In this document: one piece after another, positions 40,666-43,957 of the stretch | How the letters are laid out: each line of letters starts with the position of its first letter | Numbering within the stretch: position 1 is the stretch's first letter | Source of the DNA: Parcubacteria group bacterium | GTDB taxonomy: Bacteria > Patescibacteriota > Minisyncoccia > JACPHC01 | NCBI GenBank assembly: GCA_016188775.1 | Contig: JACPHC010000009.1 | Span: forward strand, 1-43,957 | DNA length: 43,957 nucleotides | Reading direction: 5' to 3' | Made by a program: the position numbers and the translations under genes | Notes under the pieces: model-generated | Seen by the model: the letters and a program-made list of their open reading frames with translations, nothing else | Told to the model about the DNA's origin: nothing | The model's database searches: none

Positions 40666-41829
40666 ATGTCTTATCAGGTTTTATACCGAAAATACCGGCC
40701 AAAAAAGTTTTCCGAAATTATCGGCCAAAATCATATCGTTGGTACTTTAATGAATGCCGTAAAATCGGGAAGAGTCGGCCACGCTTATCTTTTTTCCGGG
40801 CCTCGGGGCACGGGAAAAACGACCATCGCGCGGATTTTGGCTAAGACGGTAAATTGCGCCAATTTGTCTAAAATTTCCGGAGGAAATATTGATGACAAAT
40901 TGAGCGTCCGCCGAAGCGAAGCAAAGGCGGACAGCTATTTTTTCGAGCCTTGCAATTCCTGCGAACTCTGCCTTGATTTTAACGAAAGTAGAAATCTTGA
41001 TTTGATTGAAATAGACGCGGCTTCTTCCAGGGGCATTGACGAGGTTCGGGAATTGCGGGAAGGAGCTCGTTTCAGTCCCTCGCGCTCTAAATTCAAAGTT
41101 TACATTATTGACGAAGTTCATATGATGACTAAAGAGGCTTTTAACGCTCTTTTGAAAACATTGGAAGAGCCGCCGGCTCACGCGATTTTTATTCTGGCCA
41201 CGACTGAACCGGATCGCTTGCCTTTGACAATCCGATCTCGCTGTCAGCATTTTCATTTTTGGCGGCCGAGCGTCAATCAAATCATTGAACGTTTAAAATT
41301 TATCAGCCGGGAAGAAAAAATTAAAGCCGAAGAATCGGCTCTTCGTTTGATAGCCAAATCGGCTTCGGGGTCAATGAGAGACGCCGAAAGCCTTTTTGGC
41401 CAGGTGATTACGCTCGAGGACAAAGAGATTAAAAAAGAAGAAGTGGAAGAAATTTTAGGCGTCGCTCCTTCGGAGTTTGTAAAAAATTTTCTCAGGCATG
41501 TTTCTGAAAAAGACGCGCGTTCGGCTATTCATTTGGTCGGCCGTATTTACGACGAAGGCTATGATTTGGGCGAGTTTAATAAAAATTTAATTACTGATTT
41601 AAGACACCTATTGCTTTTAAAAATTGATCCGAAATTTAAAACCGTTTTAAAAGAGGATTTAACTTCTGACGAAATTGAAGAGCTTGAAAAAATGGTTGTT
41701 GTTTTGGACGCGAAAAATTTGGAAAACGGCTTAAAAATTTTTCTTGAAGCTAATCAGAATATAAAAAAATTTGTTTATCCCCAGCTGGCCCTAGAAATGG
41801 CGGTTGTGGAATATTGCGGGATCGTCTAA
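40666..41829 (+). CDS. dnaX: DNA polymerase III subunit gamma/tau
   Basis: YQVLYRKYRPKKFSEIIGQNHIVGTLMNAVKSGRVGHAYLFSGPRGTGKTTIARILAKTVNC...CNSCELC...VYIIDEVHMMTKEAFNALLKTLEEPPAHAIFILATTEPDRLPLTIRSRCQHF. Confidence 0.95.
   Translation: MSYQVLYRKYRPKKFSEIIGQNHIVGTLMNAVKSGRVGHAYLFSGPRGTGKTTIARILAKTVNCANLSKISGGNIDDKLSVRRSEAKADSYFFEPCNSCELCLDFNESRNLDLIEIDAASSRGIDEVRELREGARFSPSRSKFKVYIIDEVHMMTKEAFNALLKTLEEPPAHAIFILATTEPDRLPLTIRSRCQHFHFWRPSVNQIIERLKFISREEKIKAEESALRLIAKSASGSMRDAESLFGQVITLEDKEIKKEEVEEILGVAPSEFVKNFLRHVSEKDARSAIHLVGRIYDEGYDLGEFNKNLITDLRHLLLLKIDPKFKTVLKEDLTSDEIEELEKMVVVLDAKNLENGLKIFLEANQNIKKFVYPQLALEMAVVEYCGIV
40906..40932. repeat. In-frame palindrome GTCCGCC-GAAGCGAAGCAAA-GGCGGAC inside dnaX
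   Basis: 7-bp GC-rich arms; encodes SVRRSEAKADS within the zinc-binding region. Confidence 0.75.
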
Positions 41830-41885
41830 TGGTAGGACATCGCCCTTTGAAGGCGAGTATCTTGGTTCGAGTCCAAGTCCCGCAG
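41815..41885 (+). tRNA. tRNA-Gln (anticodon TTG), CCA not encoded
   Basis: TGCGGGA/TCCCGCA acceptor, TCGCC-CTTTGAA-GGCGA anticodon arm, TTGG-TTCGAGT-CCAA T arm. Confidence 0.92.
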
Positions 41886-41910
41886 CTTCGGTCAGGAGTT
41901 AAAATGAATT

Positions 41911-42023
41911 TGGCGGGGTGAAGTAGGACATCGCCCTTCTTGCCCCGCCGTAGAGGCGGGGTGAAAAGGCGAGTATCTGGCTTGCCCCGAAGAAAGCGGG
42001 GGTTCGAGTCCAAGTCCCGCAGC
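41911..42023 (+). pseudogene. Degenerate tRNA-Gln copy with two hairpin insertions (41939-41961 in the anticodon loop, 41981-42001 in the T arm)
   Basis: GTAGGACATCGCCCTT...AAGGCGAGTATCTGG...GTTCGAGTCCAAGTCCCGCAGC matches 41815-41885 interrupted by CTTGCCCCG...CGGGG elements; 5' acceptor/D region not conserved. Confidence 0.8.
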
Positions 42024-42202
42024 CACATTGTATTAATCGGAAAGGGTGCCTCGCGGCTTCGCCACTCGGCATTGAATTCAGCGAGAATTTGCCAGTCATT
42101 TTTGAACGAAACCGAAACCGCTCGCTCCGCGAGCTGTGGGTTCGAGCCGACTTTTTCAAGATAATTTTTCTTTTCAGAAAAATTATCTCCCAAAGCGACA
42201 GA
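42020..42202. repeat. Left arm of the inverted repeat flanking the serine recombinase (3' end of the recombinase gene)
   Basis: 42020-42135 is the near-perfect reverse complement of ~43611-43731; broken homology continues to CCAAAGCGACAG at 42191-42202. Confidence 0.88.
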
Positions 42203-43507
42203 ATTAGCTTGGTGAGCGGCTAAAATGAGATTCTTTGTCCGTTCGAGCCAGCGATTGCCCTTTCGCTCAAAATCTTTCAATTTCTGCTCAATATCAATTT
42301 TGCGTGCGAGGATTTTGTTTTTCTTGGCGGTATATTCCTCGCCAGTAATGGTCTTTTCCAAATGAGCGTCTAAAAGCGTGTCCAACTTCTCCTCGCACGC
42401 CTTTACCTCGTTTTTGAGATTTTGAGCGAACAGGGCATCAGATTGGGCGGTGCTCGCTTCATCTGTTTTTAATTGCGCGAGCATCGGTTCCGCCCAATCT
42501 TTCGGTAAAGAAACTTTTTGAAGTATGTCGGAAATCTGCGAGGCGAGAACTTCTTCGCGGATATAGGGTTGCGAACAAACATCTTTCTTTTTCGTACAGC
42601 GATAGTAGACATAGTGCCGACCACTCTTTTTAGTTTTGTCTTCGGCGGTAATGGCGCAACCACACTCTCCGCATTTCAATAATCCGCGAAAAATATATGT
42701 CTTCTCGCCTCGCTTCTTGGGTCGGGACTTTTCCGACATGACTTCTTGGACTTTATCAAAAAGTTTCTTTGTTATCGCTGGCTCATGCTTGCCTTCGTAT
42801 AGCTCGCCGTTGAACTTAAACGCGCCGTAGTAAAACGGATTACGAAGTATCATTTGGATATTGGAAACAGTCAGCCGTTTTCCGTTCCGGCTCACCAAGC
42901 CAATTTCGGTAATTTCATTTCGTAAATCTTTCAGAGAATAATTTTTGGTTGCGTACAATTCAAAAAGTTTTTGGACGAGGCGATAGCGTTCAGGGTCTTT
43001 CACCATTTTGTGATTCACTTTGTCGTTCAAGTATCCGGTAGGGGCAACGCCCGGATATTCGCCTCGTCTTACTTTTTGACGCAACCCTCGTTTTACATTC
43101 TCTGAAAGATTATCAATATAGTATTTGGATTGCCCAAAAGCGATATTCAACATGAATTTTCCTTGCGGCGTGGCATCAAACCAAAAAGTGGGAAATTTTA
43201 GCTCACGAATTTTGGTTGTATCAATCAAATAAATTACTCTGCCGCCATCGACACTGTTTCTAGCCAATCTATCAGGATGCCACGCCAAAATTCCTTGGGC
43301 AAATCCTTTCTCTACGAGCGAGAGCATTTGGTTAAAGATAGGTCGCCCCGGCTCTTTGGCGGTCTGACTTTCTATGAACTCCTGCACTATCTCCAAATGC
43401 TCTCGCTCACCGAACTCACGCAACTCGGTTATTTGCGCCTCAATACTCAAAATTTGCCTATCCGGTTCATCGGTTGATTTTCTTGCGTAGAGAAAGAATT
43501 TGCTCAT
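42040..43507 (-). CDS. Large serine recombinase (resolvase, recombinase, zinc-ribbon and coiled-coil domains); native C-terminus unclear, ORF stays open to 41750
   Basis: [21 protein letters not shown] (catalytic Ser), [18 protein letters not shown], zinc ribbon [46 protein letters not shown]. Confidence 0.92.
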
Positions 43508-43528: not shown

Positions 43529-43731
43529 ACTGTCGCTTTGGTTTCCGCCAAAGGCGGAAAAGAAAAAGTCGGCTCACAAATTTCATTTGTATTCCGCTTT
43601 GCGGAATGAACCCCCAGCTCGCGGAGCGAGCGGTTTCGGTTTCGTTCAAAAATGACTGGCAAATTCTCGCTGAATTCAATGCCGAGTGGCGAAGCCGCGA
43701 GGCACCCTTTCCGATTAATACAATGTGGCTG
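43529..43731. repeat. Right arm of the recombinase-flanking inverted repeat, carrying extra nested palindromes (43542-43560 and 43576-43607)
   Basis: Encodes [41 protein letters not shown] on the + strand, the same peptide as the recombinase C-terminus on the - strand. Confidence 0.85.
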
Positions 43732-43786
43732 TGTCTCCTGAACAAAATCCGAACTTTTTACCAAACGAACCCCGACGAATGAAGCC

Positions 43787-43931
43787 GCCCCGCCGCCGCT
43801 CGCTGACACTCGCCGTACCACAGAAAAATACTCTTTGCTCTTTTCATTTTGCGCGCGCCGGATTTCTTTTTCTCCTAATGAAAAGAGTATTTTTCTGTGG
43901 TGCTTTGCTTTGACAAGCAAGGCGGCGGGGC
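43787..43931. repeat. Large composite hairpin: GCCCCGCCGCC...ACCACAGAAAAATACTCTTT...AATGAAAAGAGTATTTTTCTGTGGT...GGCGGCGGGGC
   Basis: 11-bp outer GC arms and ~25-bp inner arms with a 7-nt bulge. Confidence 0.82.
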
Positions 43932-43957
43932 TGGCCTCTATTTTTTGAAAGGGAATG

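Follow-up and report, generated by a model that had tools for sequence, protein, structure and literature searches.

A broken tRNA-Gln copy in a Parcubacteria genome as the probable relic of a palindromic element that nests one tRNA gene inside another

We analyzed a window of 43,957 bases, which is a complete contig (C2) of a 767 kb, 10-contig genome of a Parcubacteria group bacterium. Judged by comparison with related loci, the broken second tRNA-Gln in this window is the right-hand end of a tRNA-inside-tRNA element and represents the 3' half of an outer tRNA-Gln. With a probability of roughly 0.7, we interpret it as what remains, after loss of the left part, of a mobile palindromic element that targets tRNA genes in Patescibacteria. 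A complete element sits in the D loop of the outer tRNA after nucleotide 15, replacing about two nucleotides, and its layout is outer 5' half, CTTGCCCCGCC..., complete inner tRNA, ...GGCGGGGTGAAG and outer 3' half. The inner tRNA has the same isotype as the outer one, and many elements add a GIY-YIG nuclease gene of roughly 80–90 codons.

ARAGORN and Rfam call a single tRNA in the window, the intact tRNA-Gln (UUG). An earlier note, made from the sequence alone, had proposed a tRNA search at the broken copy downstream, and this copy is left uncalled by both programs. With permissive thresholds over positions 41700–42200, Rfam gave no credible match apart from the tRNA. Read without interruption, the broken copy (41912–42023) consists of GGCGGGGTGAA, GTAGGACATCGCCCTT, CTTGCCCCGCCGTAGAGGCGGGGTGAA, AAGGCGAGTATCTGG, CTTGCCCCGAAGAAAGCGGGG and GTTCGAGTCCAAGTCCCGCAGC (Table 1). 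Over 16, 13 and 22 nt, its three tRNA segments match the intact tRNA without a difference, which bears out the earlier note in regarding it as a degenerate tRNA-Gln copy. The 16- and 13-nt segments carry the similarity upstream of the last 23-nt match, which taken alone has an E value of 1e-5.

In the anticodon loop, hairpin 1 takes the place of a TG dinucleotide, just as the D-loop insertion takes the place of a TG, and the expected count of its pattern in shuffles of the window is 0.00. The earlier note placed the two hairpins in the anticodon loop and the T arm; both sites hold, with the qualification that hairpin 2, in the 5' strand of the T stem, lacks the TGAA end. At 41912–41929, the right arm GGCGGGGTGAAG is joined to the tRNA sequence that follows the D loop, and a complete tRNA of the isotype of the outer 3' half, Gln, lies immediately inside this arm. 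Because the outer 5' half and the left arm are absent upstream in the window (they are present at C3:106,770–106,800), we class the window copy as a derivative, incomplete member. Its missing left half is explained as a deletion, which left the trailer stem orphaned.

Table 1. Features of the tRNA-Gln locus in the 43,957-base window
Feature	Position	Strand	Evidence
dnaX (DNA polymerase III gamma/tau), flanking host gene	40666..41829	+	Pfam PF13177, PF22608, PF12169
Intact tRNA-Gln (UUG), inner tRNA of the element, joined to the original 5' flank	41815..41886	+	ARAGORN; Rfam 63.7 bits
Trailer half GCTTCGGT, orphaned; in complete elements it forms, with the leader, the stem around the inner tRNA	41885..41892	+	
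Right terminal arm of the element, ATGAATTTGGCGGGGTGAAG	41904..41923	+	Arm complementarity across 27 elements
Arm sequence GGCGGGGTGAA opening the broken copy	41912-41922		
Outer tRNA-Gln 3' half, segment 1, GTAGGACATCGCCCTT: D-arm 3' side to anticodon loop	41923..41938	+	Identical to intact tRNA
Bare hairpin 1, CTTGCCCCGCC-GTAGA-GGCGGGGTGAA, anticodon loop, TG replaced	41939..41965	+	
Outer tRNA-Gln 3' half, segment 2, AAGGCGAGTATCTGG: anticodon stem 3' strand, variable loop, T stem start	41966..41980	+	
Bare hairpin 2, CTTGCCCCG-AAGAAAG-CGGGG, T-stem 5' strand	41981..42001	+	
Outer tRNA-Gln 3' half, segment 3, GTTCGAGTCCAAGTCCCGCAGC: T loop to acceptor and G73	42002..42023	+	Identical to intact tRNA
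Large serine recombinase beside the tRNA 3' end	42024..43507	-	Pfam PF00239, PF07508, PF13408

The remainder of the genome was examined as stretches surrounding tRNAs together with selected loci. A search with the tRNA 3' end found a second tRNA pair on contig C3, a near-complete copy in which an outer tRNA-Gln (CUG) is broken in the D loop by a complementary-ended unit enclosing another complete tRNA-Gln (CUG), with both outer halves and both arms present. On the minus strand it reads GCGGGATCGTCTAA, then CTTGCCCCGCCAAATTCAT ... CCGAAGC and the complete inner tRNA-Gln (CUG), followed on the right by GCTTCGGCCAGGAGTTACA ATGAATTTGGCGGGGCGAAG and TAGGACGCCTGACTCTGAATCAGG...TCCCGCAGC. When the outer halves are rejoined, ARAGORN calls a tRNA-Gln (CUG), with an anticodon identical to that of the inner tRNA. 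Across trailer and right arm, 43 positions in all, the window and the C3 copy show 3 differences, and therefore we regard the window locus as the right part of a C3-type element. In the leader/trailer stem on C3, GCCGAAGC pairs with GCTTCGGC; the window trailer GCTTCGG has no such pairing leader. The nuclease gene of the C3 copy is only a remnant, and a short way downstream C3 holds an intact GIY-YIG gene (C3:106,161–106,385). At a third site, C1:41,804, the tRNA 5' half GCCGAAGTAGCTCAG is followed by CTTGCCCCGCCAAATTTG and a complete tRNA-Phe. Elsewhere on C1, a GIY-YIG gene with two stops lies directly upstream of tRNA-Cys (C1:37729–37938, loci L061/L246).

On the basis of the loci collected, we distinguish three types. 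Type A, mostly Gln, runs from the outer 5' half and left arm through the GIY-YIG gene and the inner tRNA to the right arm and outer 3' half (L100, L140, L155, L176, L180, L188, L202, L212 and the C3 copy); the gene is missing from Type A elements of Val (L098, L230), Thr (L143, L216, L228) and Ile (L159, L204). Type B, in Thr and Val, has the inner tRNA, the GIY-YIG gene, and then a hairpin-bearing D arm with the outer 3' half (L194, L195, L197, L201). In Type C, an intact tRNA is preceded on its upstream side by a truncated outer tRNA that holds a bare hairpin (L131, L139, L157, L166, L205 and others). Nesting reaches four deep in L163, where four tRNA-Thr (UGU) have the acceptor pairs GCCGAGA/TCTCGGC, GCCACCC/GGGTGGC, GCCAGCG/CGCTGGC and GCCAGAG/CTTCGGC. 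Extremely nested pieces of tRNA-Val and tRNA-Arg were also seen in L112 (G205:C24, 1100–1900) and L126 (G205:C90), with elements in both orientations and anticodon-loop insertions included. In every rejoined outer tRNA save the decayed L212, the anticodon is identical to the inner one. Truncation, after the D arm or farther along, affects about half of the outer genes; the inner tRNAs are all complete.

Beyond the conserved core, the arms are complementary within elements at 140 of 162 positions (27 elements), compared with a mean of 95.7 and a highest value of 118 in 2,000 permutations. Complete elements have 9–10 of 10 leader/trailer pairs, against 3–4 of 10 in the window and in L203, L207 and L233, which are further left-deleted derivatives. 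Over all 13 Gln loci, 99 of 130 leader/trailer positions pair (permuted mean 86, maximum 102), a comparison that is not decisive because many stems are alike and four of the loci are left-deleted.

The family is found across Patescibacteria. Among 383 genomes of the class, all seven exact matches of the pattern CTTGCCCCGCCAAATT, which contains no tRNA sequence, lie in tRNA genes. We also scanned 84,980 GTDB genomes with the 18-base right-junction pattern GGCGGGGTGAAGTAGRRC, and this gave 48 matches in tRNA context at 47 loci. Those listed with a title all belong to Patescibacteria or to a plain 'bacterium', and the groups include Nomura-, Zambryski-, Campbell-, Wolfe-, Wildermuth-, Falkow-, Kerfeld-, Curtiss- and Berkelbacteria, among others. 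The isotypes hit include Gln, Thr, Val, Ile, Ala and Arg. The remaining 59 GTDB matches are without tRNA context by the filter, almost all of them in GC-rich genomes; L133 (Nomurabacteria), missed by this filter, proved on inspection to be an element in tRNA-Gln with a GIY-YIG gene. Since the last bases of the junction pattern bias it towards tRNA, specificity rests on the CTTGCCCCGCCAAATT search. In viral contigs, none of the nine junction matches is in tRNA context, a result that serves as a control. A viral vehicle was considered and rejected, as the viral contigs hold neither a GIY-YIG relative nor a junction in tRNA context.

The two hairpins of the window are bare members of the same arm family that entered the dead outer half. 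The earlier note had assigned both insertions to one hairpin family, had seen the arm sequence GGCGGGGTGAA in place of the 5' part of the copy as well as beside hairpin 1, and had suggested a hairpin search beyond the window. All of this was confirmed: GGCGGGGTGAA belongs to the family of the hairpins, and the same arms occur in tRNA genes on C3, on C1 and in dozens of other Patescibacteria. L100 has hairpins at the same two positions as the window, and L138, L176, L203 and L208 at one or both. The anticodon-loop position is common to L100 and L138, and with other stems to L176 and L203; the T-stem position is common to L100, L176 and L203. At these equivalent positions, the stems differ yet stay complementary.

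Bare hairpins elsewhere in the class occupy a copy of tRNA-Ser, the D loops of two other tRNAs, an RNase P RNA and five further places. RNase P RNA is a structured RNA that is normally single-copy. The one in L238 (G268:C11) contains the hairpin CTTGCCCCGCC-TC-GGCGGGGTGAAG at 1500–1525 and scores 48.7 bits (E 5.5e-14), under the Rfam threshold of 100. In L237 (G274:C10, at about 1500), a tRNA-Ser is followed by a 5'-truncated copy with a bare hairpin in its D loop. Some hairpins are located between short complementary flanks (L235 and L243, p ~0.03 each), and the flank-stem test is weak overall, lending weak support to the idea that bare hairpins always lie in palindrome loops.

The nuclease genes, carried by many Gln, Thr and Val elements, match PF01541. 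Their frame is open in L100, L176, L180, L188, L202, L212, L195, L197 and L201, and in the Gln type it extends into the inner tRNA. Within each of the two types, pN is mostly 0.15–0.35 and synonymous change is saturated, so the genes are under purifying selection. The gene is present in relatives, degenerate in the C3 copy and absent from the window.

In the proposed mechanism, the predicted GIY-YIG nuclease would cleave tRNA genes that lack the insertion, or the hairpin extruded from them. An occupied copy, perhaps one acquired by DNA uptake, would then be the repair template from which the element is copied in, and we consider homing of this kind the likeliest route of spread. The comparison shows the structure and distribution of the elements, the match of isotypes, the selection on the nuclease, the loss of outer genes and the deletion derivatives; cutting, homing and transfer between cells are inferred. 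Bare hairpins with the same arms are insertions in their own right, found among other places in the anticodon loop and T arm of the dead outer half, as in this window. The relic could be the product of recombination between the repeated tRNA 5' halves, which would have removed the outer 5' half, the left arm and the nuclease gene and left an intact tRNA and the outer 3' half. The host would survive the loss of the hit gene because the element supplies its own working tRNA copy. The element is thus most likely selfish and self-compensating, as the inner tRNA would replace the gene that the insertion destroys. Several observations count against this reading. The inner tRNA has the same D-loop sequence as the target and would invite self-cutting, and the nuclease gene is absent from the Ile, Phe and Arg types and from some Thr and Val elements. 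In several genomes, the outer half follows the inner sequence closely, which is not needed of a dead copy; gene conversion is likely behind this tracking.

The order dnaX–tRNA-Gln is common to relatives, some with the element and some without. In the dnaX neighborhood, G177 (L119) has the element and L207 a derivative, and a single uninterrupted tRNA-Gln is present in G078 (L273), G083 (L275), G038 (L276) and G019 (L268). As these hosts are distant relatives, the element-free loci probably preserve the ancestral arrangement; they do not document a recent jump. The empty-site comparison was made at the dnaX locus across the class; we found no pair of near-identical strains of which one carries and the other lacks the element at a given site, and flanking DNA within the genus has no usable homology. 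Because no such pair was found, we infer movement of the element from its distribution and from distant empty sites.

On the other side of the broken copy, the open frame of the serine recombinase continues through the tRNA copies. This recombinase is a separate mobile element outside the palindromic family. Other serine recombinases abut tRNA 3' ends at C10:315–1730 (tRNA-Val) and C7:47153–48184 (tRNA-Ser), and a fragment at C4:43804 adjoins tRNA-Ala/Ile. A 124-bp inverted repeat, 99% identical, lies on either side of the recombinase in the window (42020–42143 and 43608–43731). It carries the C-terminal coding end of the recombinase, is 226 bp from the contig end, and could be an invertible unit, a second element end or an assembly artefact. 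Close to the contig end, there is also a long imperfect hairpin (43785–43935) with 20-bp arms CCACAGAAAAATACTCTTT/AAAGAGTATTTTTCTGTGG and GC-rich outer arms.

The adjacency of the recombinase recalls an ordinary integrase scar, in which this enzyme would have integrated at the tRNA 3' end and left a partial copy, as the others beside tRNA 3' ends might suggest. We reject this explanation as scarcely credible. The same arrangement on C3 and in dozens of genomes has no recombinase in the element or between the halves, and the D-loop break, the arms and the inner tRNA are left unexplained. The earlier note had called the copy a pseudogene from integration. It is indeed a copy killed by insertion at a tRNA, but not the usual integrase remnant at a tRNA 3' end, since the D loop is the site of insertion and the upstream tRNA is cargo of the element. 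A less remote, though still unlikely, possibility is that hairpins and tRNA-carrying units are non-autonomous and are mobilized in trans by an HUH/Y1-type single-strand transposase (REP, IS200/IS605-like), entering hairpin loops of single-stranded DNA with the GIY-YIG genes as passengers. The imperfect palindromes with a conserved CTTG/TGAAG asymmetry, the insertions in D, anticodon and T arms and in RNase P RNA, and the complementary flanks of some hairpins are consistent with it, and the genome has one Y1 transposase gene. However, the flank of that gene (C6:5523), inspected by eye, lacks the element arms, the flank-stem result is weak, and the genes inside elements are GIY-YIG genes under purifying selection, with no Y1 genes among them.

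It is also quite improbable that these loci are tRNA introns or split tRNAs. In that reading, the transcript of the outer gene would include the additional arms and the nested tRNA, and their removal would yield both tRNAs. Full-length outer genes in L098, L163 and L201 re-pair the acceptor with sequence unlike the inner tRNA, and for many loci ARAGORN recognizes a tRNA once the element is removed. Acceptor pairing was read by hand; the automatic count mixes the downstream intact tRNA into bare-hairpin loci. Archaeal intron-containing and split tRNAs resemble the element in their loop breaks, and the GC-rich complementary arms at the break are like archaeal split tRNA leaders. Nevertheless, no standard bulge-helix-bulge motif (two 3-nt bulges around 4 bp) is present: by hand, the junction reads as D stem, 2x2 loop, 3 bp (CTT/AAG), G/TG loop and GC helix. 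Rfam gives only tRNA in the window and eight element-bearing loci, with no group I or II intron core. The outer genes decay, the hosts are bacteria, and the window copy has three insertions and no 5' half. The earlier note also thought an intron unlikely, and this stands because the outer 3' half is truncated or missing in about half of comparable loci with the inner tRNA intact. Its reason, an unpaired acceptor, does not, since GCGGGGT can pair with GTCCCGC; the GCGGGG here is element arm and does not originate from a tRNA 5' half. We are just as doubtful that the outer tRNA is still made, with the arms pairing, the inner tRNA excised by ordinary tRNA-end processing and the outer halves joined. 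If this were true, it would be a bacterial nested split tRNA giving two tRNAs per transcript. Transposition of archaeal tRNA introns has been described (PMC10714607).

Our preferred reading, a palindromic element that inserts into tRNA genes, has partial parallels in known systems. In the open full-text literature, we found no description of a tRNA-nesting element, and we provisionally regard it as new. At tRNA 3' ends, tyrosine-integrase elements carry an integrase and use attachment-site homology to restore the 3' terminus. They likewise enter a tRNA gene with a functional tRNA kept, whereas the element described here supplies a whole second tRNA and breaks the D loop. Mobile GC-rich hairpins are known from mitochondria, as double-hairpin elements and yeast GC clusters, and REP/MITE palindromes from bacteria. 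To our knowledge, none of these contains a complete tRNA matching the interrupted gene, and of a REP/RAYT arrangement the genome shows one Y1 gene, with none of the element arms seen in its inspected flank. They are tiny and palindromic like our element, and some lie in structured RNA genes (see also PMC4478555).

The GIY-YIG homing endonuclease SegB belongs to the tRNA region of phage T4 (PMC2988022). Both systems link a small GIY-YIG nuclease to tRNA genes, and cut-and-repair would explain the spread. In contrast, genes of the SegB type are free-standing in the tRNA cluster (PMC2988022), while the element lies inside a tRNA gene and has a replacement tRNA and palindromic ends. The accessible part of a study on CPR rRNA genes reports GIY-YIG-encoding insertions that are neither group I nor group II introns, and short uncharacterized insertions mostly at the tops or bases of stem-loops (PMC11270868). 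The host group is that of the element; the insertions are in rRNA and not tRNA, and that part of the text does not mention a nested replacement RNA. These insertions possibly belong to the same family.

Taken as a mobile element, the nested unit would represent a way to inhabit an essential gene, in which a tRNA gene is destroyed and a working copy of the same tRNA is brought along. The reduced genomes of Patescibacteria make tRNA loss costly. The element connects the evolution of tRNA genes with GIY-YIG nucleases and palindromic repeats in this group, and can account for broken and duplicated tRNA annotations in its genomes. It also provides a directly testable system, the nuclease against the tRNA gene.
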